Below are positions 7,010-34,631 of a DNA stretch of 39,350 nucleotides, in pieces. Source of the stretch: an uncultured Sphingomonas sp. (GTDB lineage Bacteria; Pseudomonadota; Alphaproteobacteria; Sphingomonadales; Sphingomonadaceae). A program made the translations under genes and the position numbers. The notes below the pieces were generated by a model. That model was not told the DNA's origin. It saw nothing but the letters and a program-made list of their open reading frames with translations, and ran no database searches. The stretch is taken from assembly GCF_902806285.1 (NCBI RefSeq), contig NZ_CADCWA010000186.1:1-39350 (forward strand), written 5' to 3'. Position 1 is the stretch's first letter, and every line of letters begins with the position of its first letter.

Positions 7010-10000
7010 ATGAGCTTGCATGACACCTCTCGCCCGAACTCGAGAGCGATCCAAGCTAAACAGGGCGCATGGGACTCCGACCGTGCGCGGTTCTTCGAGG
7101 CCTCCCCTAACGCTTACCTCGTGCTCGACCGGCGGCTGCATATCGTCGCCGCCAACCACGCCTACCTCCTTGCGACCGGGCGCGAGCTCGCGGACATCGT
7201 CGGGCGGTGGGCCTTGGAAGCGTTCCCGACGGACCCGGAAACCGAACGTCAGGCGATCGCCTCCTTCGAGCGGGTGATCGCGACGGGGCAGCCGGACACC
7301 ATGGCGCTGCTGCGCTTCGACATTCCCCGACCGGAGAGCGACGGCGGCGGGTTCGAGAAGCGCTTCTGGAGCCTCATCCATTCGCCGGTGGTGGACGAGG
7401 ATGGCGAGGTCGCCTTTATCGTCCAGCACGCACTCGACGTGACGGAACTCGAGCGGCTGCGGGAGGAGGCTGCCGCGCCGCCAGGCGGGCAGCCGTCCGG
7501 GCTGAAACCCGCGCATGCCGGCATTTTCGACCGTGCCAACAGCGTCCACCGGGCCAACCTCGACCTCAAGGCCGAAAGCGAACGGCTACGCCTGCTGTTC
7601 CAGAATGCACCGGGTTCGATCTGCGCGCTGTCGGGCCCCGATCATGTGTTCGAATTCGCGAACGACGCCTACCTTCGCCTGATCGGGGGACGCAACCCGA
7701 TCGGCAAGCCGGTGCGCGAAGCGCTGCCGGAGATTGCCGGACAGGGCTTCCTGGAATTGCTGAACACGGTTTATGCGACTGGCGAGCCGTTTGTGGGCAC
7801 CGCCGTCCCGGCAGAACTGAACAGCGGTCCCGAAGGCGCGACCGAGCGCCGGCTGCTCGACTTTGTCTTTCAGCCGATCCGCAGTGCGGCCGATGAGGTC
7901 ATCGGCATCTTTGTTCAGGGCCAGGACGCTACCGAACGGGTGCGGGCCGAAGAGGAAGCGCGCGCTCACGCCCGCCGCCAAGACTTCCGCCTGGCCGTGG
8001 CCGAGCGTCTTCGGGATCTCGCCGAGCCGAGCGAGATGATGCAAGCGGCGACCGACCTCCTGATGGAGCAACTTGACGTTGCGCAGGTCGGTTTCGCCGA
8101 GGTCGAGGACGATGGGGAACATATCCGGGTCGCCCGCAACTCGAATGACGGACGCGTCCCCTCGGTGGCCGGCCGCTGGCGCATGGACGATTTCGGACCC
8201 GCCTTTGTCCGCGAGATGAAGGCCGGCGAGACGATCGCCATCCCGGACGTCAGGGTCGATCGCCGAACCTGTGCGCCGGAGGTCGTGGCGGCATATAGTG
8301 GCATTGCCACCCGCGCGATCCTGGATGTTCCGCTGGTCCAGCACGGCCGCATGGTAGCCATGCTGTTCATCCACCACCCCGAGCCGCGCGCTTGGAAGGG
8401 GGATGAGGTGGCGCTGGTGGAGGAGACCTGCGAACGGCTGTGGGCGGCGGTTGAGCGAGCCCGGGCCGAAGTGGCGCTGACGGAAAGCGAGGCGCGGCTG
8501 AGGACCGCGCTGGCCGTGGCCCGGCTCGGGACGTTCGAGTGGGATCTCGCAACGGACGCGGTGGTGCTGGACGCCCGCAGCCGCGAAATCTTCGGCTTCG
8601 CAGCGGGCAAGGGACTGACCGCGCAGGACGTGTTCGACCGCATCCACCCTGACGACTTGCCGTCCGTTTATGCCGACGCAGTTGCTTCAGGCGAGGCGCT
8701 CGCACGACTGGACCGCGAGTACCGCATCATCCGTCCGGACGGGGCGGTCCGCACGGTGAACAGCCTGAGCGACGCATTGCCTGGCGGGAACGGGCAGGCG
8801 GCCCGGCTAATGGGCGTGTTCGCCGACGTAACCGAGCGCAAGGCGGCCGAGCAGGCTCTTCGCGAAAGCGAGCAGCGCTACCGAACGTTGTTCGAGGCCG
8901 TGGACGCCGGCTTCTGCGTCGTCGAGTTGAAGCTCGACGAGAACGGTGGTCCGGTCGATCACTTCTTCGTCGAGGTCAACCCGGCGTTCGAGCGCCACAC
9001 CGGCGAGGCCGGCGCCGCCGGACGCTGGGCAAGCGAGGTCGCGCCCGGCATCGAACAGCGCTGGCACGACACCTACGCCCGAGTCGCTTCCACTGGTGAG
9101 GCCGTGCGCTTCGAGGCTCCCGCCGGGCCCCTGGGCCGCTGGTTCGACGTCCATGCCTTTCGCGTCGGGGCGCCGGAGCAGTACCGCGTCGCCGTCCTGT
9201 TCAACGACATCACCGAACGGAAAGCGGCCGAGAAGCGGCTGCGCGATTTAGCCGACACGCTGGAGCACCAGGTGGCAGAGCGCACGACCGAGCTGCTGGA
9301 AAGCCAGCGCCGCTTCCAGGGCATCTTCGACTCGGCCTTCCAGTTCATGGCCTTGTTGTCGCCGGACGGCACGGTGGTCGAGGTCAACCAGGCGGCGCTT
9401 GCCTGGAGCCAGATCGAGGCGTCGGACATGATCGGCAAGCCATTTTGGCGGGCGGCACCCATGCGCGACAATCCCGTGCTGCAGGAGGCGGTGGAATCGG
9501 GCGTTCGCCGGGCCGCCGCCGGTGAAACGGTCCGGGCGGAGCACGAGCTGCGCGGCGCGGGCGAGGTGCGGGCAACGGTGGACTTCTCGCTCAAGCCCGT
9601 GCCGGACGAGCATGGCGAGCCGGCCTGGCTCGTCGCCGAGGGTCGGGACATCACCGACCTCAAGGCGGCGCAGGAGGCGCTGCGGCAATCGCAGAAGCTG
9701 GAAAGCATGGGCCAGCTGACCGGCGGCGTCGCGCATGACGTCAACAATCTGCTTACCCCGATCATGGGCAGCCTCGACCTGCTGCAGCGCAAGGGCCTTG
9801 GCGGCGAGCGGGAACAACGGCTGATCGCCGGGGCGCTTCAGTCGACGGATCGGGTCCGGGTGCTCGTGCAGCGTTTGCTGGCCTTTGCTCGCCGGCAGCC
9901 GCTCCAGCCCAAGCCGGTCGACGTTGATGCACTTATCACCGGAATGGCCGATCTGGTCAGGAGCACTTCCGGACCGCAGACCAAGGTCACGGTGGATATT

Positions 10001-10777
10001 GCCCAAGACCTTCCCGCCGCCGTCGCCGACCCCAATCAGCTGGAGATGGCGATCCTGAACCTCAGCGTTAATGCGCGCGACGCCATGCCCGACGGCGGAC
10101 GCCTGACCATCTCGGCTCACGCGGAGGACATCGCCGGCAATCAGCGTCTCGGGCTGGTTGCCGGCCGTTACGTGCGTTTGTCGGTGGCGGATACGGGCAG
10201 CGGCATGGACGAAGCCACGGTGAAGCGCGCGATCGAACCCTTCTTCAGCACCAAGGGCATCGGCAAGGGTACGGGGCTTGGACTATCGATGGTCCACGGA
10301 CTCGCCGCACAGCTTGGCGGGGCGCTCAGCATCGCGAGCAAGCGGGGGTTGGGCACCACCGTTGACCTGTGGCTGCCGGCGACGGACCAGACCGTTCAGC
10401 GGCCAGCCCCGCTCCAAGCGGAGGCTGTCCTCCCGGCTGCGGGTGCCGCGCTCCTGGTCGACGATGAAGAGCTGGTCCGCGCCAGTACCGCCGACATGCT
10501 CGCCGACCTGGGGTACGTTGTGACGGAAGCAGGCTCGGCCGACCAGGCGCTGCAGCTGATCGCAGACGGGCTCACTCCCGACATCGTGATCACCGATCAC
10601 CTGATGCCGGGTCTAAGCGGTACCGAGTTCGGGCGGGAGGTGGCGAGAAGGCTTCCCAACGTCCGCGTGCTTGTTATCTCCGGCTACGCCGAGGTGGAAG
10701 GCGTTGCGCCCGATCTGCCACGTCTCGTGAAGCCGTTCCAACTCAGCGACCTCGCCGGCAAGCTCGCTGAGCTCTAG
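7010..10777 (+). CDS. Multi-PAS/GAF hybrid sensor histidine kinase with receiver domain
   Basis: 1255-residue cytoplasmic hybrid kinase. Approximate domain order: PAS (26-150), PAS (190-308), GAF (325-485), PAS (488-600), PAS (612-742), coiled linker, PAS (765-885), HisKA with phosphoacceptor His909 in GGVAHDVNNLL, HATPase (N-box NLSVNARDAMPDGG, G1 VADTGSGMD, G2 GKGTGLGLSMVHG), and a C-terminal receiver with phosphoacceptor Asp1196 in DIVITDHLMPG and the conserved Lys in LVKPF. No transmembrane segment is apparent, so the five PAS domains and the GAF domain would read internal signals. The kinase core resembles the blue-light/PAS hybrid kinases common in alphaproteobacteria. No DNA-binding output is fused. 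The LuxR-type gene 157 bp downstream is a plausible but unproven partner. The start ATG has only a weak upstream GGA. Confidence 0.93.
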   Translation: MSLHDTSRPNSRAIQAKQGAWDSDRARFFEASPNAYLVLDRRLHIVAANHAYLLATGRELADIVGRWALEAFPTDPETERQAIASFERVIATGQPDTMALLRFDIPRPESDGGGFEKRFWSLIHSPVVDEDGEVAFIVQHALDVTELERLREEAAAPPGGQPSGLKPAHAGIFDRANSVHRANLDLKAESERLRLLFQNAPGSICALSGPDHVFEFANDAYLRLIGGRNPIGKPVREALPEIAGQGFLELLNTVYATGEPFVGTAVPAELNSGPEGATERRLLDFVFQPIRSAADEVIGIFVQGQDATERVRAEEEARAHARRQDFRLAVAERLRDLAEPSEMMQAATDLLMEQLDVAQVGFAEVEDDGEHIRVARNSNDGRVPSVAGRWRMDDFGPAFVREMKAGETIAIPDVRVDRRTCAPEVVAAYSGIATRAILDVPLVQHGRMVAMLFIHHPEPRAWKGDEVALVEETCERLWAAVERARAEVALTESEARLRTALAVARLGTFEWDLATDAVVLDARSREIFGFAAGKGLTAQDVFDRIHPDDLPSVYADAVASGEALARLDREYRIIRPDGAVRTVNSLSDALPGGNGQAARLMGVFADVTERKAAEQALRESEQRYRTLFEAVDAGFCVVELKLDENGGPVDHFFVEVNPAFERHTGEAGAAGRWASEVAPGIEQRWHDTYARVASTGEAVRFEAPAGPLGRWFDVHAFRVGAPEQYRVAVLFNDITERKAAEKRLRDLADTLEHQVAERTTELLESQRRFQGIFDSAFQFMALLSPDGTVVEVNQAALAWSQIEASDMIGKPFWRAAPMRDNPVLQEAVESGVRRAAAGETVRAEHELRGAGEVRATVDFSLKPVPDEHGEPAWLVAEGRDITDLKAAQEALRQSQKLESMGQLTGGVAHDVNNLLTPIMGSLDLLQRKGLGGEREQRLIAGALQSTDRVRVLVQRLLAFARRQPLQPKPVDVDALITGMADLVRSTSGPQTKVTVDIAQDLPAAVADPNQLEMAILNLSVNARDAMPDGGRLTISAHAEDIAGNQRLGLVAGRYVRLSVADTGSGMDEATVKRAIEPFFSTKGIGKGTGLGLSMVHGLAAQLGGALSIASKRGLGTTVDLWLPATDQTVQRPAPLQAEAVLPAAGAALLVDDEELVRASTADMLADLGYVVTEAGSADQALQLIADGLTPDIVITDHLMPGLSGTEFGREVARRLPNVRVLVISGYAEVEGVAPDLPRLVKPFQLSDLAGKLAEL

Positions 10778-10934
10778 CGAGCAGTCGACGACGTCCGGTC
10801 GGCGATTCGGCCCTGGCAAGTTGCGGCGGAAAAGAAGGCCGTAGGCTGCCCGCCGCAGCGCTCAAGTTTGAAACCACGGCCCGATCCAACCAAAAAACTC
10901 GATTCCGCTGGTCCAACTATGGTAGCGGGACGGC

Positions 10935-27869: not shown

Positions 27870-30251
27870 GTGTACGAGGCCAGGCTCGAAGCGAGCGAGG
27901 AAGGGGAGCGGCCGGGTACCTGGCTGCTGATCTACGGATCCATCTTCCCCGCCATGGTCATCGTCATCGAACTCCTGACTGGACTGTGCGCCAACATCTT
28001 CTTCGATCCGCTGCCTACGCCTGCTCACGTTCTCCTGACGCTTGCGGTGCCTGCGGCGAACCTCGCGCTGTGGCTTACGCTGCGCGGTGGTACGCTGATC
28101 GGCGCCCGTTGGCTGATGATGGCCGGAGGCGGGGCCGCTGCGATCGCCATATCCTATTCGCTCATCTTCCTGCCGCTGCTGCCGCTGGCGGTGATCGGGA
28201 TCATCGTCGGGCTCGGGCTGCTGCCGTTCGGACCGGTTGCTGCGGCCTACGCCGCGATCAAGCAGACCTGGGGCCTGTACTGGGCGCTTGGTGAGCGCCA
28301 CGGGCGGCGAGCCTGGGCTGGAGTAGGGCTTGGTGTCTGCGCCGTGCTGCTGGCGGACCTCCCCTCCACCGCGACCTTGCTCGCCTTGCGCTGGGCCGAC
28401 GGCGATCCTGCCAGCGTGTCGCGCAGCGTGACGCTGATGCGGACCTTGGGTGACAAGGACATGCTGCTGCGCCTCTGCTATGAAAGCGACCGTCGCGCCA
28501 ATGGGCTCGGCAGCGCACTCGTGTCGTTATGGGATGGCCCGTTCGGTGGCGAATTCGACCGCGGCGCCAACACGACGGCGGCGCGCGAACTCTACTACCG
28601 AGTGACCGGCGAAGCATTCAACCTGCGCCCGCCGCCCTACACGCGCGGGGCCTGGGCACAAGCGAACGACTTCCAGTTCGACGAGGAGCAGGGCGGAGCA
28701 CAGGTCGGAGGGCGGCTACGCGGGCTAGGCCTGGCGTCCTCGCGGATCGATGGCTCGATCTCGGCCGACGATGCGCTGGCCTATGTCGAGTGGACGATGG
28801 ACTTCGACAACAGTTCGTCGCAGCAGCGCGAAGCGCGGCTCACCCTTGCCCTTCCGCCCGGGGCGGTCGCGTCTCGAGCGACCTTGTGGGTCAACGGCGA
28901 GCCGCGCGAGGCGGCGGTCGCCTCCCGGGCGAAAGCACGCGCCGCCTATGAGCAGGTGGTGGTGCGCGAACAGCGCGACCCGTTGCTGGTCACCACCGAT
29001 GGTGCCGACCGGTTGTTGGTTCAAGCATTCCCGATCCAGCCCGGCGGTGAGCTCAAGCTTCGGATCGGCATGAGCGCGCCCCTGGAGATTGGGCCTGACG
29101 GACGGATGAGCATGGCGCTGCCGGCGATCACCGACCGCAACTTCTCGATCGGTAACGGGGTGCCGCATCTGGTATGGCTGGAGAGCAAGAGGCCGCTCGG
29201 CGAGAAACACCCGCGTCTCGCGGTGCCCGCGCCCGGGCAGGTGCGGGGCGAATTGACCGACCGCGACCTGGCGAGCGGCCGAGCGCGGATCGATGCTGGA
29301 AGGGCGGTGCCGGGTTTGCGTCACGCCGTGTTGCCTGTCGACGGCAAGCTCCCGGCAAAGCCGGTGACGCAGACCATCAGCTTGGCTCCAAACGAGCCCG
29401 CCTCCGCGCTGATGCTTGTGGTTGACGGCTCCGCCGCCGGCGGTGCCGCGCGGGAAGGCCTGCTGACCGCGCTGGACGCGATCCCGGAAGGCTCCAAAAT
29501 CGGGCTCATCATCGCGGCCGACGAGGGTGCGCAGGTGTCGCCGTCACCTTGGACGCGCGAGCAACGCAGCCGGTTCGAACGGGCGCTTCGCAGTCACCGG
29601 TTCGTCGGCGGCCAGGACAACGCCGGGGCGCTCGCGGACGCGACCGCGCTTCTCGGCCGTGAGTCGCGCGGCGCCCTGCTCTGGGTCCATGGGCCGCAGC
29701 CCGTCGCCTTTGCCGCCTCCACGGCGAGGATCGAACAGCTTGGCGAGCGCGCTTCGTCGCTGCCTCGTCTTCTGCTCTACCAGGTGGCTCCGGGCCCGCA
29801 GCGGATCCTGGGAGGCAGCGACTGGACGGAGGCGGCGCGAGTTGTTCCGGCATCCGGTGCTGTTGCCGACGATCTCGCGCGGGTCTTTGCCGAGGTTTTG
29901 GGCGCGGGGCAGCGGCTGCGGGCGGTCCGCGTTGCCGGGACGAGCGGAGCGGCCCAAGGTTCGCCGCACATCGCCCGCCTCTGGGCTGCGGAAGAAGTGC
30001 AGCGCCTGAACGCAGCCGGACGGCGCGACCAAGCGATCGCGCTCGCCGCGCAGGCCGGGATCGTCACGCCGGTGAGCGGTGCGGTCGTGCTGGAGACCGA
30101 TGCCGACTACAAGAACAACGACCTGGCCGTCCCCGCGGCGGCGGACGTGCCTACGGTTCCGGAGCCGGAAGTCTGGGCGCTCCTGTTGCTCGCGCTGTTG
30201 GCCGCCGCCTGGTACTGGCGGCGCTACGGCGCGCGGACGGTGGCCGCTTGA
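27870..30251 (+). CDS. Membrane VIT-domain protein with degenerate VWA region and PEP-CTERM sorting signal
   Basis: 793 residues. Residues 18-170 contain about five membrane helices. A VIT domain (vault/inter-alpha-trypsin) spans roughly 285-400, including the typical AYEQVVVREQRDP segment at Tyr360 and VQAFPIQPGGEL. Residues 510-680 look like a VWA fold with a broken MIDAS: VVDGSAA at Asp519 instead of DxSxS, and GGQ at 580-582 where Thr is expected. The C-terminus is a PEP-CTERM signal of the PEPxxWA type: VPEPEVWA (763-770), a hydrophobic helix, then WRRYGAR. The adjacent exosortase should cleave at this signal. GTG at 27870 has AGGAG 7 bases upstream. First gene of a tightly overlapped cassette. 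Confidence 0.85.
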   Translation: MYEARLEASEEGERPGTWLLIYGSIFPAMVIVIELLTGLCANIFFDPLPTPAHVLLTLAVPAANLALWLTLRGGTLIGARWLMMAGGGAAAIAISYSLIFLPLLPLAVIGIIVGLGLLPFGPVAAAYAAIKQTWGLYWALGERHGRRAWAGVGLGVCAVLLADLPSTATLLALRWADGDPASVSRSVTLMRTLGDKDMLLRLCYESDRRANGLGSALVSLWDGPFGGEFDRGANTTAARELYYRVTGEAFNLRPPPYTRGAWAQANDFQFDEEQGGAQVGGRLRGLGLASSRIDGSISADDALAYVEWTMDFDNSSSQQREARLTLALPPGAVASRATLWVNGEPREAAVASRAKARAAYEQVVVREQRDPLLVTTDGADRLLVQAFPIQPGGELKLRIGMSAPLEIGPDGRMSMALPAITDRNFSIGNGVPHLVWLESKRPLGEKHPRLAVPAPGQVRGELTDRDLASGRARIDAGRAVPGLRHAVLPVDGKLPAKPVTQTISLAPNEPASALMLVVDGSAAGGAAREGLLTALDAIPEGSKIGLIIAADEGAQVSPSPWTREQRSRFERALRSHRFVGGQDNAGALADATALLGRESRGALLWVHGPQPVAFAASTARIEQLGERASSLPRLLLYQVAPGPQRILGGSDWTEAARVVPASGAVADDLARVFAEVLGAGQRLRAVRVAGTSGAAQGSPHIARLWAAEEVQRLNAAGRRDQAIALAAQAGIVTPVSGAVVLETDADYKNNDLAVPAAADVPTVPEPEVWALLLLALLAAAWYWRRYGARTVAA

Positions 30252-31033
30252 TCAACCCCGCGGCAATCCTGCTCGTCCTTCTGCTGGCGTTCTGGGACGC
30301 TTGGCAGCTGCTCGCAGTTCGGCTCGACAGTGGCGTGGATGCGATCCCGCTCCTCCTTGTTCTGACTGCCGTGTTTGTTCCGTTGGCTCGGCGGCTCTAC
30401 TCTGGAGCCGCCGGCTTCCCCGTCGAGCTCCGCTACCTCACTGCAGCGCTCCTGCTCTATGTTTCAGCCACCCTGTTCGCGCCGCCGCCAATTCGCATCG
30501 CGGTCGCCGCCGTTACCCTGCTCGGGGCAATGCATCAGGTGGGCATCGGCCGCCGTCCGGGAGCGCCGTTCGTCAGCCTGACCTTGCTCGCGTTACCAGT
30601 GCTGCCTTCCCTGGAGTTCTTCCTCGCCTACCCGCTGCGGGTCGCTTCGGCGGGGATCACCGCCCTTATGCTCCGCACGAATGGCTTCCCAGTTGCGTTG
30701 GACGGGGTCGCGCTGCGCTGGGGCGAAGCCACCGTTCAATTCGACGCGGCCTGCAGCGGCGTTCGGATGCTGTGGGGCGCGCTGTTCCTGGCCAGCGCGC
30801 TGGCGCTTATCGCCGGGCTGCCGCTACGTCGTTATGCATTGCTGATCGCAGCGGCGGTTCCGCTGGCGATCTTCGCCAATGCCCTTCGCGCCGCGAGCCT
30901 GTTCTACCTCGAAGCGAATGCGGCCGCGCTGTCGCTGCCGCCGGCTGCGCACGAACTCACCGGGATTGCGGCTTTCGCGATGCTTGCAGTTGCGGTGATG
31001 ACGCTGGGCGTCCGGCAAAGGCTTGCGCAATGA
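30248..31033 (+). CDS. Exosortase/archaeosortase family transpeptidase
   Basis: 261-residue integral membrane enzyme with about seven to eight helices. The family's catalytic residues are visible: Cys169 in FDAACSGVRMLWG, Arg214 in ANALRAASLFYLE and His235 in HELTGIAAF. Exosortases cleave C-terminal PEP-CTERM signals on the periplasmic side and transfer the protein to an acceptor; the substrate encoded immediately upstream makes this a dedicated pair. The TTG start overlaps the upstream stop (TTGA), and its own stop overlaps the next ATG (ATGA). No glycan-biosynthesis genes surround it, unlike exopolysaccharide-linked exosortase loci. It is shorter than EpsH-type exosortases with a fused EpsI domain. 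Confidence 0.88.
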   Translation: MINPAAILLVLLLAFWDAWQLLAVRLDSGVDAIPLLLVLTAVFVPLARRLYSGAAGFPVELRYLTAALLLYVSATLFAPPPIRIAVAAVTLLGAMHQVGIGRRPGAPFVSLTLLALPVLPSLEFFLAYPLRVASAGITALMLRTNGFPVALDGVALRWGEATVQFDAACSGVRMLWGALFLASALALIAGLPLRRYALLIAAAVPLAIFANALRAASLFYLEANAAALSLPPAAHELTGIAAFAMLAVAVMTLGVRQRLAQ

Positions 31034-31545
31034 CCCGGATCCAACCGGCGTTGTTCCTAATGATGGCTGCGCTGGCCGCCTCGGTGCCCTTCGTGAGTCG
31101 CGCCTCCGGCCCACCGGAAACCTCGGCTTTCCCGGGCTGGCCGAGCCGTCATGAGAACCGGGCGATCGCGCTCCTGCCGCCGGCGCCCGAGGACGCCTGG
31201 CTTGCGCGCCAGTTCCCGGGCCGGATCGCCCGCTTCAGCGACGGCAAGCGCCAGATCGTTCTGCGCTGGGTGGCGGGACCGACCCGCCTTCTCCATCCGG
31301 CGGTGCAATGCTTTCGCGCCGCCGGCTACACGATCGGCGAAGCGCCGGTACGGCGATTGGCGGATGGCGCGACGATGGGCTGCTTTCGCGCCAGCAAGGA
31401 CGGCCGGGCCGTCCTGGCCTGTGAGCGAATCTTCGACGCCCGCCAGTCCTGGCCCGACGTGTCCTCCTGGTACTGGCATGCGCTTCTGAATAGGGCGCCG
31501 GAGGGTTACTGGGCGGTGCTGGAGGTCGGCACCGCCGGAAGCTGA
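31030..31545 (+). CDS. EpsI-like exosortase-associated secreted protein
   Basis: 171 residues with an N-terminal signal or anchor segment (PALFLMMAALAASVPFVS) and a periplasmic domain. The HPAVQCFRAAGY motif resembles the HxPxxCLPxxGW element of EpsI/DUF3485 proteins that accompany or fuse to exosortases. Cys residues in VQCFRA, GCFRAS and ACERIF could form a disulfide or active site. The start is fixed by the ATGA overlap with the exosortase stop. The family assignment is by motif and context and should be treated as tentative. Confidence 0.65.
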   Translation: MTRIQPALFLMMAALAASVPFVSRASGPPETSAFPGWPSRHENRAIALLPPAPEDAWLARQFPGRIARFSDGKRQIVLRWVAGPTRLLHPAVQCFRAAGYTIGEAPVRRLADGATMGCFRASKDGRAVLACERIFDARQSWPDVSSWYWHALLNRAPEGYWAVLEVGTAGS

Positions 31546-31601: not shown

Positions 31602-34600
31602 ATGCGTGTTTATCTTCTTGCCGCGTGCATCGGCCTTGCCGCGCTGAGCGCGACAGCGGGCGCGAAGAGCGCCCAGCCGGTAATCCCTCGTGACGCAATT
31701 TCGGCAAGCACTGCACGCAATCCGTCCGTGCTCGCGTATGAAGGCGGCGTTCGCAGCGAAGCGACCGAGCGCAGCCTGGACATCCGGCGCATGGACCTGC
31801 GCGTGAATGTGCGTGGCGCGGTTGCGGTCAGCGAGATGAACCTGTGGGTGCACGCAGCAAGCGCGGAGACGGTTGAGGGACACGTTCGGATCGCCCTTCC
31901 GGCCGGTACTGTCGTGACCGGCTATGCGCTCGACGTGGATGGCACGATTGTAGACGGCTCTCTGGTCGAGGCCGCCCGCGCCGAGGCTGCCTACGAACGC
32001 CAGGTTCGTGGGCAGGTGGATCCGGGCCTTGCAAAGATCGATGCCGGCGGAGCCTTCACGACGCGCGTGTTCCCGATCGATCGGGGCAAGGGGCGCCGGC
32101 TGCGGCTCCGGTTCGTGACTCCGGTCGCCAATGGCTACCGCCTGCCGCTCGATCTTGCCTCGCCGGTAGATGGCTGGGCGGTGGTTGTGAGCGGCGACGG
32201 CGCTCAGGCGCGGCTTGGCGGCCGAGGCCTCCAGCAGCGCGGCAGGGATGCAGTCCTGACCGGCACCCGAGCCATCCGAGGCGATCTCGTCATCGACCCG
32301 CCCCGAGGGCCCGAGGCGCTCGCCAGCCTGCACTCCACCGGTGAGACCTACTGGCAGCTAAGCGGCCCGATGCCAAAGGCGCAGCGGCGGACCGGTGGCA
32401 CCATGAGGATCTACTGGGACCGTTCCCGCTCCCGCCGTGACCAGGACCATGCCGCCGAACTGCGACAGGTGCGGGACGCGGCGAGGGCGCTGGCACCTGA
32501 GAGGATCGAGTGGGTCGCCTTCTCATCGGGCGCACCGGAACGGACTACTTTGGCGAACGCCGCCGAGATCGATCGCCGGGTCGGAGCCCTCCGCTACGCA
32601 GGTGCGACCAGCTACGCTGTGCTGGCTTTCGCCCCCCCGGCCGACACGTGCGTGCTGGTCAGCGACGGACAGGCAACTCTTGACGAAGGCCGCCTTGCCC
32701 CGCTGCCGTGCCGGCTTTTCGCAATCGCGCCGGCCGAGGGCAGCAACGTCGCCCGGCTCACTTCCCTGGCGCAAGCGAGCGGAGGCCAGTTCGTCGCCGC
32801 CGACCGCGGCGAAGTCGATTGGCATGCTCCAGCGATCGAACAGGTGCTGGACGCATCCGGCACTCCACTTCGGTTCGTGACCCTCGGCAGCTCGCCGGAC
32901 CGGTGGACGGTCGCCGTCAAGGCGCCACCCAGCGGGCCGGTGCGAGTCATGATCGGCGGGGCTGCCGTTCAGCGTGAGCCTGTCGCCGCTCCGCTGCGGT
33001 TCGATGGCGAAGGCGCAATCCTTGCCCGCGCTCAACTCGCGGCGTTGGAGGGAACAGCGGATCGCCCGGCCTTCGTAGAACTTAGCCGGCGCTACTCGAT
33101 CGCCAGCCCGACACTGTCCTTCGTCGTGCTCGAACGACCGGAGGATTATGTCCGCAATGGCATCGAGCCGCCGCGAGGATACAAGCGGCACTCCGAGTGG
33201 GCGGAGCTCAAGCTGGCTGAAGATGCCAATCGCAAGGCAGCCGAGCAGAACCGCTTCGCGCAGCTGCTGAAGGATTGGAACGAGCAGGTCGCCTGGTACG
33301 AAACGCGCTTCGACCTGACTGCGCGCCCGCCGCAGAGAAACGGCAAGGGACAGCCGGCACCAAGCGTGATAGCGGCGCCGGCGCCCGCCATCGCGCAGAC
33401 CCCTGGGACACCGACCTGTCCGGACGGTTCATCGCGCGGTGCCGCAGCTTCGTGCCCTGCGCCGCCGCCGCCGCCTCCGCCGCCTCCACCCGCGCCCGCG
33501 CCCGCGCCCGCGTATGAGAGGGACGACGAATATGAGCCGGAAGGGGCCCAGGAGGTTGTAGTTACGGCCAACAGGACTCCAGCTGAGAGTCCGGGCAGCA
33601 ACTCCCGAGACCTCCTCGTGTCCGTGGCCGCGTGGCGGCCGGAGCGGGACTATCTCGACGCCTACGACAAGGCGCCCGGGGCCTTCGACCACATCTATCC
33701 CGACTGGGAGAAGAAGGCGGGCGGCGTGCCCTCATTCTATCTCGATACTGCCGATTGGCTGTACCGGCAGCAGCGACTGGCCCCAGCCGAGCAGGTCCTC
33801 ATGTCGGCGCTCGATCTTCCGACCGCCAACCAGATAACGCTGGGCATGGTTGCGGCGCGACTGGAACGCTACGGTTTGATCGACATGGCCGTCGGGTTGC
33901 GCGAGCGGCAGGCGCTGCTCGATCCCGATCGTCCGCAGCCCAAGCGGCTGCTGGCCCTGGCACTGGCACGTCGTGCGGCGCTGGGCCGGGCTGGCGCGAA
34001 GGCGGACTTGGAGCGGGCCATCAGCCTGCTCCTGGAGATCGCGCTCAAGCCGGTCGACGGTCGCTGGAAGGGCATTGACCTCATCAGCATGGTCGAGGCC
34101 AACAATCTTCTTGTCCGCCTCCGCAGGCTAGGCGGCGACGTTGCTGTCGATCCACGGCTGATCAGGAACATGGCGAGCGACGTCCGTATCGTGATCGACT
34201 GGTCCAGCGACGCGACGGATGTGGACCTGTGGGTAGATGAGCCAAATGGCGAACGGGCAATCTACAGCAATCCGCGGACTCGGATCGGCGGGCACCTCTC
34301 GAATGATATGACGGAAGGATTCGGCCCGGAAGAATATCTCCTGAGACGTGCCGCGACAGGTGCTTACGTCACCCGGGCGGATGTCTACGCGCCCGATCGG
34401 CTGGACCCCAATGGAGCCGCCCGCGTCACCGCCCACCTTTACCGAGATTGGGGCCGCCCGACAGAGCGGGTGGAATCGATCGATTTCGACGTCAGGGACG
34501 GGGAAGACGAGGAAGTCCGTATCGGGACGCTGACCGTCGAACGATCAGGCGAGGGTGATGAAGCCCGCGTACGCGGTGCCTCGTCCATAGGGGCTCCGGC

Positions 34601-34631
34601 CGTTCAGCGTCGGGCGGAGCCGCGGCAATAG
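31602..34631 (+). CDS. Secreted VIT-VWA-DUF2135 protein with TonB-box-like motif
   Basis: 1009 residues. A signal peptide (1-20, LLAACIGLAALSATAGA) precedes a VIT domain (about 52-175; AYERQVRGQVDPG, TTRVFPIDRGKG). A VWA-like domain (about 265-400) has a complete-looking MIDAS: Asp273-x-Ser275-x-Ser277 in IYWDRSRSRRD, Thr336 in YAGATSYAV and Asp355 in VLVSDGQAT. A Pro/Ala linker with ten consecutive prolines (about 617-637) leads to EVVVTANR at 651-658, which looks like the TonB box/plug start of TonB-dependent receptors. A helical repeat region (about 700-850) and a C-terminal DUF2135 domain (about 860-960, DVDLWVDEPNGERAIYSNP) follow. There is no C-terminal sorting signal. It lies 56 bp after the EpsI-like gene, probably in the same transcript. 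Confidence 0.85.
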   Translation: MRVYLLAACIGLAALSATAGAKSAQPVIPRDAISASTARNPSVLAYEGGVRSEATERSLDIRRMDLRVNVRGAVAVSEMNLWVHAASAETVEGHVRIALPAGTVVTGYALDVDGTIVDGSLVEAARAEAAYERQVRGQVDPGLAKIDAGGAFTTRVFPIDRGKGRRLRLRFVTPVANGYRLPLDLASPVDGWAVVVSGDGAQARLGGRGLQQRGRDAVLTGTRAIRGDLVIDPPRGPEALASLHSTGETYWQLSGPMPKAQRRTGGTMRIYWDRSRSRRDQDHAAELRQVRDAARALAPERIEWVAFSSGAPERTTLANAAEIDRRVGALRYAGATSYAVLAFAPPADTCVLVSDGQATLDEGRLAPLPCRLFAIAPAEGSNVARLTSLAQASGGQFVAADRGEVDWHAPAIEQVLDASGTPLRFVTLGSSPDRWTVAVKAPPSGPVRVMIGGAAVQREPVAAPLRFDGEGAILARAQLAALEGTADRPAFVELSRRYSIASPTLSFVVLERPEDYVRNGIEPPRGYKRHSEWAELKLAEDANRKAAEQNRFAQLLKDWNEQVAWYETRFDLTARPPQRNGKGQPAPSVIAAPAPAIAQTPGTPTCPDGSSRGAAASCPAPPPPPPPPPPAPAPAPAYERDDEYEPEGAQEVVVTANRTPAESPGSNSRDLLVSVAAWRPERDYLDAYDKAPGAFDHIYPDWEKKAGGVPSFYLDTADWLYRQQRLAPAEQVLMSALDLPTANQITLGMVAARLERYGLIDMAVGLRERQALLDPDRPQPKRLLALALARRAALGRAGAKADLERAISLLLEIALKPVDGRWKGIDLISMVEANNLLVRLRRLGGDVAVDPRLIRNMASDVRIVIDWSSDATDVDLWVDEPNGERAIYSNPRTRIGGHLSNDMTEGFGPEEYLLRRAATGAYVTRADVYAPDRLDPNGAARVTAHLYRDWGRPTERVESIDFDVRDGEDEEVRIGTLTVERSGEGDEARVRGASSIGAPAVQRRAEPRQ

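Follow-up and report, generated by a model that had tools for sequence, protein, structure and literature searches.

As a rule an exosortase serves many targets, in a genome that also carries polysaccharide loci (PMC1569441 and PMC12188702), and because of this multiplicity the cleavage site, the acceptor and the role of EpsI are hard to test. EpsI-like regions fused to or lying beside exosortases were reported by Haft et al. (2006), with no known function (PMC1569441); an EpsI-like companion gene as such is therefore not new. A "dedicated system", in turn, is one in which one sorting enzyme has a single target, and relatives of the VIT/VWA proteins carry GlyGly-CTERM, LPXTG or PEP-CTERM tails (PMC3237569). 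The dedicated Gram-negative sortase (TIGR03784/TIGR03788) is one such pairing of a sorting enzyme with an adjacent VIT-family target. Here we analyse a window of 39,350 nucleotides from an uncultured Sphingomonas sp. (the whole stretch studied; contig NZ_CADCWA010000186.1, assembly GCF_902806285.1, forward strand), in which a comparable pairing is found: a gene for a VIT-domain protein with a PEP-CTERM tail is followed by an exosortase gene and by a gene for an EpsI-like small protein. In contrast to the enzyme and the LPXTG tail of the TIGR03784/TIGR03788 system, the enzyme here is no sortase relative. We propose, with a probability of about three in four, that these three genes constitute a dedicated one-substrate exosortase operon, whose enzyme would cut, and probably transfer, the VIT protein and is a probable sister of exosortase Q.

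The three genes and the parts of the target are as follows.

27870-30251, forward strand: VIT target, multi-pass, with a PEP-CTERM tail; 793 amino acids, GTG start
27918-28385, forward strand: putative N-terminal membrane region of the target (residues 17-172), about five hydrophobic segments, from a hydropathy scan and the helices of the model
28767-29066, forward strand: VIT domain of the target, PF08487 at 51.6 bits in the scan of its own genome
29397-29789, forward strand: VWA-like domain of the target (metal site degenerate), from alignment columns, the ITIH4 profile match and the structure model
30147-30248, forward strand: PEP-CTERM sorting tail of the target, VPTVPEPEVWALL...WRRYGAR, from PF07589 and the invariant core
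30248-31033, forward strand: exosortase with Cys169, Arg214 and His235; 261 amino acids, TTG start at 30248
31030-31545, forward strand: EpsI-like small protein with an N-terminal anchor or signal; 171 amino acids, ATG start at 31030

Consecutive genes share four bases, TTGA between target and exosortase and ATGA between exosortase and EpsI-like gene. The outer limits of the trio (27870-31545), the overlaps and the catalytic residues had been given in the original prediction, made from the letters of the window, and proved correct on recheck.

A scan of one genome per species (84,980 species) with the VIT-protein alignment yielded 23 loci, on whose open reading frames profiles of all three proteins were run; the VIT protein alone had served to find them. 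The order VIT protein, exosortase, EpsI-like protein is present in 17 of the 23 (in two with the enzyme and the EpsI-like protein fused), and also in the window and in locus L038, which lie beyond this set; L076 has the order enzyme, EpsI-like protein, target. Contig ends cut three loci, L047 ending with the exosortase and L061 and L062 in the target. Most neighbouring genes overlap by 1 to 16 bases; the extremes are an overlap of 31 bases and a gap of 44. The trio is a real unit, with an order beyond chance, and these neighbourhoods bear out the expectation that an exosortase recurs together with a single VIT target and an EpsI-like protein of its own. Pairwise protein distances covary among the three proteins (r 0.86-0.90, permutation p 0.0001) over the 15 loci in which all three were aligned as separate genes, a covariation that shared descent alone can yield. 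One contig of 233,347 bases carries two labels, L048 among the 23 loci and in the tree described below and L037 in the exosortase alignment (A3) and the EpsI-like alignment (A4); the target alignment (A6) omits this copy, L037, as well as L038, L052, L056, L059, L061, L062, L063 and L076, and L040 (contig C53) was left unused.

The enzyme of the window matches PF09721 (87.7 bits, cut-off 25.7) and the general exosortase signature TIGR04178 (48.0 bits, cut-off 23), and Cys169, Arg214 and His235 are invariant in all 20 aligned sequences, that of the window included. No named exosortase-type model of NCBIfam reaches its cut-off, the best being exosortase Q (NF012182; 94.5 bits, cut-off 270), with exosortase N (TIGR04476) at 39.5 bits (cut-off 200) and exosortase T (NF033770) at 35.9 bits (cut-off 250). 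Membership in exosortases Q, T or N was rejected on these scores, and by the curated cut-offs the claim that the enzyme lies outside the named Xrt subfamilies stands. The exosortase Q model matches all 20 members of A3, highest in L058 (164 bits), and gives 127.3 bits with the L076 exosortase. In a tree of 54 enzymes the cassette enzymes (21 rows) form one group at 92/76, present in 94% of 200 bootstrap trees; the exosortase Q group has 98/93, both together have 99/96, and exosortase T sits on a long branch. Among solved structures no match to the exosortase profile was found at E<=0.1. These findings point toward the cassette enzymes as a probable clade beside exosortase Q, that is, a probable sister subfamily with a target of the XrtN/MSEP-like type.

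Among 398 Pseudomonadota genomes, four have an exosortase Q proper that passes the model's cut-off, with scores of 335-398 bits; exosortase T does so in 1 of 299 genomes, and this one locus was inspected. The exosortase Q group is the nearest to the cassette clade in the tree, and its loci L072, L073 and L075 have the same order of target, exosortase and EpsI-like protein; in L074 the enzyme and the EpsI-like protein were seen, and a target homologue occurs in the stretch, its place uninspected. The EpsI-like profile of the cassette finds its partner in all four loci at E 2e-51 to 5e-59. The targets, in contrast, are of another kind: those of exosortase Q in L072, L073 and L075 are VIT-VWA proteins (TIGR03788 at 407-424 bits against 12.1 bits for the target of the window), which keep a DISGS (L072, L075) or DVSGS (L073) motif where the metal site of the cassette targets is degenerate, and which begin with a signal-peptide-like stretch and show by eye no multi-pass region. 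The exosortase T locus resembles the cassette in having a VIT target with an APEPEG tail and an EpsI-like domain, but its enzyme is fused and precedes the target, which is again a VIT-VWA protein (434.9 bits); these exosortase Q and T targets, at 407-435 bits, all fall under the TIGR03788 cut-off of 551.65. VIT-target exosortases had been described in the original prediction as known mainly from Bacteroidetes, a statement that has to be amended, since Pseudomonadota too have such enzymes, exosortases Q and T, accompanied by an EpsI-like protein of the same kind, Bacteroidetes having stayed outside the searches.

The target itself was correctly anticipated as a multi-pass VIT protein with a PEP-type tail. 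PF08487 matches it at 46.7 bits (cut-off 26.5) in the Pfam protein scan, and its layout runs from about five hydrophobic segments, whose membrane topology is predicted from hydropathy and the model, through the VIT domain, the VWA-like domain (unrecognised by Pfam) and a further region to the tail, VPTVPEPEVWALLLLALLAAAWYWRRYG. In the tail, V760, P761, P764, E765, P766 and L771 are invariant in 18 of 18 aligned targets, and PF07589 gives 20.3 bits in the protein scan and 26.6 bits in the genome scan, with a cut-off of 20.7. Among NCBIfam models the target is nearest to those of the XrtN and MSEP-CTERM systems, in both cases below the cut-off: 140.2 bits to TIGR04477, the XrtN target (cut-off 250), and 49.3 bits to TIGR04286 (cut-off 150), the best stretch being the membrane region; TIGR03788 is far from its cut-off, as given above. 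The likeness to XrtN (TIGR04476/TIGR04477) is one of model scores.

The AlphaFold2 model of the target (pLDDT 84.8, pTM 0.81) has as its best solved-structure match in Foldseek the human inter-alpha-inhibitor heavy chain 1, a protein without a membrane region and with a pro-domain in place of the PEP tail (E 1.7e-18 over 589 columns). The TM-scores of 0.33-0.41 and a root-mean-square deviation of 10 indicate that the domains of both proteins agree better than their arrangement. The target profile also finds ITIH4 at E 3.1e-9; the match consists of three collinear stretches, in VIT, in VWA and in the region after it, none of which is strong by itself. Heavy chain 1 has an intact metal site, with Asp298, Ser300, Ser302 and Asp403 as ligands (PMC7170535), whereas in the alignment of 18 targets Asp-Gly-Ser is invariant, the fifth position of DxSxS is Ser in 2 of 18 only and the segment expected to hold the distal Asp reads W-[VIL]-H. 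Taken together, the target of this clade is a multi-pass, XrtN/MSEP-like protein whose fold is heavy-chain-like and whose metal site is degenerate.

The small third protein had been called EpsI-like and secreted. It has an N-terminal anchor or signal. All 17 members of A4 match the exosortase T model at E<=1 (best 2.1e-12), and the protein of the window does so at E 0.063; the matched segment, positions 317-387 in a model of 472, lies past the part that corresponds to the enzyme. No EpsI family model is matched, PF11984 (EpsI/DUF3485) being absent from the families found at E<=1 for the 17 members and NCBIfam likewise giving no EpsI model, and membership in the EpsI/DUF3485 family was rejected on both scans. 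The other EpsI of the same genome reaches 111.4 bits with PF11984, and the EpsI-like profile aligns to it over 26 columns around LHP..xC..xGY (probability 9.6, E 0.0034). All members of A4 share Cys94, and almost all share Cys118 and Cys131. A fold search with the structure model (pLDDT 88.5) gave nothing at E<=0.001 in the PDB or among viral models. Several of the top PDB entries, namely a thylakoid NDH-PSI subunit, DcrB, EagT6 and PA94, look like a single fold of the PsbP/Mog1 type, which we take as a lead only. The exosortase and the EpsI-like protein are fused in two Armatimonadota (L057, 10449-11777; L058, 12295-13629). The same fusion was seen as one open reading frame in the exosortase Q locus L073 (6917-8572), so that it occurs in more than one group.

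Enzyme and target are adjacent in the cassette, as in a dedicated sorting system. The genome of the window has two exosortases and two PEP-CTERM matches above the cut-off, one pair per locus, in the cassette and on contig C202, where the pair sits among polysaccharide-type genes (names read from the sequence, except for the exosortase, DUF3485 and PEP-CTERM genes, which are model-based). On this contig, L039 has the second exosortase, the DUF3485 EpsI and their own PEP-CTERM protein at 7696-10847; between these genes lies an open reading frame that, judged by a motif, looks like an L,D-transpeptidase. Each of the 16 carrier genomes searched has one to three exosortases, and in six of them (G365 and the genomes of L046, L050, L054, L055 and L058) that of the cassette is the sole one. 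A PEP-CTERM search (E<=0.01) of these six returned the cassette's own target (two genomes) or nothing (four genomes), and 1 to 23 matches were found in the other ten. One of these ten, Sphingomonas sp. Leaf407 (L060), has two exosortases, yet the target of the cassette is its single PEP-CTERM match at this threshold. These results are suggestive of a cassette exosortase that has no other target in single-exosortase genomes.

We infer the following course of events. The N-terminal helices would insert the VIT protein into the inner membrane, leaving its heavy-chain-like body in the periplasm, and the PEP-CTERM helix would return to the membrane. By analogy with what is proposed for exosortases in PMC1569441, Cys169 would attack the chain in the PEP motif or close to it to form an acyl-enzyme, and the exosortase would hand the new C-terminus of the VIT protein to an acceptor. 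The VIT body would end up held by its N-terminal helices and joined elsewhere by its C-terminus, and the EpsI-like protein may be a partner of the enzyme, binding the tail or the acceptor. A more far-reaching version, which we consider distinctly improbable, is prompted by the C-terminal ester link of inter-alpha-inhibitor heavy chains to sugars (ester-linked to polysaccharide in PMC7170535): the cassette might be a minimal bacterial heavy-chain conjugation machine, in which the C-terminus of the membrane-held VIT protein would be joined by the exosortase to an envelope glycan or glycolipid and the EpsI-like protein would present the acceptor. If true, this would be a parallel to, and may reflect shared ancestry with, the animal proteins that are ester-linked C-terminally to chondroitin sulfate and moved onto hyaluronan.

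Other readings of the same data have to be weighed against a dedicated operon with an enzyme of its own kind. The enzyme could simply be exosortase Q, with an NCBIfam cut-off that is too strict and a whole clade that deserves that name. That model is indeed the best one for the window and for every member of A3 it gives a match, both groups join at 99/96, the EpsI-like protein is common to both and the gene order recurs in the three exosortase Q loci inspected. We nevertheless find this reading unlikely, given that the clade scores 94.5 bits (window) to at most 164 (L058, best of 20) against a cut-off of 270 and 335-398 bits for exosortase Q members, that the two groups separate in the tree and that the VIT-VWA targets of the one differ from the multi-pass targets of the other. 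The VIT protein might also be processed by the exosortase of C202, or by none, the adjacent enzyme having another role; the tail of the window is similar to ordinary PEPxxW tails, and a second exosortase is present in the genome of the window and in 10 of 16 carrier genomes. Since the remaining six show no other exosortase match and the pair of VIT protein and exosortase co-occurs across phyla, we hold this to be quite improbable.

The unit could finally be larger and comprise the gene that follows the trio:

31602-34631, forward strand: second VIT protein, outside the unit; 1009 amino acids, N-terminal hydrophobic segment, PF08487 at 43.9 bits

The only two VIT matches of the genome are indeed these neighbours, side by side, and the second VIT protein had been proposed as a part of the cassette. 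A search of 25 other loci, some of them shortened and L076 not among them, did not find it; it occurs in 8 of 61 genus genomes, the own one included, of which the seven others are without the cassette exosortase; and when the own genome was scanned with PF07589, this protein yielded no hit. A four-gene system is therefore very improbable indeed, and was dropped because the second VIT gene is not co-inherited with the trio; the adjacency is taken as chance or local preference. Its label as a VIT-VWA-DUF2135 protein is not borne out by Pfam, which finds neither VWA nor DUF2135 in it at E<=1. In another genus genome a protein with a PEP-CTERM-like end, judged by eye, adjoins the second VIT gene (L090, 8757-9278).

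Several points weigh against the dedicated operon as we propose it. Cleavage of the VIT tail is an unproven prediction from sequence. The genome of the window is 87% complete, the search for other exosortases and targets covered 16 of the 20 other clade carriers (L047, L052, L053 and L057 lay outside it), and PF07589, used at E<=0.01, recognised the tail of the cassette target in only 4 of these 16 (G205 and the genomes of L055, L058 and L060; two of the six), so that it is insensitive to tails of this type and may miss other targets. Three of the 23 loci, L056, L059 and L063, have the VIT protein with no detectable exosortase or EpsI-like partner in the span searched downstream, 2.3 kb in L059 and about 10 kb in the two others. 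Start codons were taken nearest to the upstream stop, which favours short overlaps. As for the tree, support for the clade is moderate (92/76, not starred) and several branches are long, that of L055 among them; warnings from the program concerned long branches, an unusual composition of some rows and the midpoint root, and the sister relation to exosortase Q rests on that root. The relative in L059 (727-3396) adds to these points, having kept the PEP tail, with an extra N-terminal region, on a 5.7-kb contig in which an exosortase was not found. L063 (8999-11863) and L056 (9944-12106), from Obscuribacterales and Poribacteria, are distant relatives that lack the usual tail, and no exosortase was found in the roughly 10 kb that follow them; they are perhaps a tail-less form or broken genes.

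Carriers of the trio include Sphingomonas and relatives, Caulobacteraceae, Hyphomicrobium, Xanthobacteraceae, several gammaproteobacterial families, a deltaproteobacterium (Myxococcota in NCBI ranks) and Armatimonadota. The term sphingomonad cassette is thus too narrow, and the cassette is rare among the relatives sampled: of 298 genomes in the family sample, three, counting that of the window, have a match to its exosortase above 100 bits (next best 37 bits), with some exosortase match at E<=0.001 in 112; in the genus sample this holds for 1 of 61, the own genome (290 bits), and ten genomes have any match at E<=1e-8 (second best 55 bits). Among 14 loci compared, the three proteins of the window are nearest to those of a Caulobacteraceae metagenome-assembled genome (50, 44 and 52% identity), which together with the patchy spread suggests horizontal transfer. 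Against such a transfer, the tree joins the window with six sphingomonad enzymes (93/77) and leaves the Caulobacteraceae one just outside (98/97 together), and in the trimmed tree alignment the closest enzyme is that of L045 (41%). The target had no match among the plasmids searched, and of 19 stretches that matched a pattern in the viral collection none encoded a relative.

Around the cassette, Pfam was run on 15 window proteins (the cassette's own included) and found sensor kinases, LigD, phosphate-transport-type genes, an RNA methylase, DUF2264 and flotillin; polysaccharide genes were absent from these 15, with the remaining open reading frames of the window outside the scan, and to this extent the claim that none lie nearby holds. 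A CreB/CreC-like regulator and kinase follow the cassette in the sphingomonad loci L038 (6288-8524), L043 (13507-15896) and L060 (13495-15779), and such two-component genes also adjoin exosortase T (L080, 2436-4829); the matches are below cut-offs, L038 and L080 having been scanned and L043 and L060 assigned by similarity. A CreD gene lies divergently upstream of the exosortase Q target in L072, and a gene read as winged-helix is upstream of the target only in the L037/L048 contig and in L049. A regulator common to the loci was sought but is not claimed, the CreBC-like genes standing directly after only three loci of the clade and beside that of exosortase T.

In the literature searched, which covers few subscription papers, we found no paper that links an exosortase to a VIT domain or to XrtN or that names exosortase Q, no such three-gene unit by name, and no paper that brings together the VIT domain, von Willebrand domains, sortases and bacteria; with most subscription papers outside this coverage, these negatives are weak evidence of novelty. 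What we describe is probably a dedicated exosortase subfamily that is new, neighbours exosortase Q and differs from it in the type of target; the general principle is already known.

In this cassette an exosortase system is pared down to a single enzyme with a single large target and an accessory protein, in carrier genomes some of which show no other exosortase. The cassette joins two named groups, the exosortase Q/T enzymes and the XrtN/MSEP-like targets, and its EpsI-like protein accompanies the enzyme from locus to locus and in some cases is fused with it.

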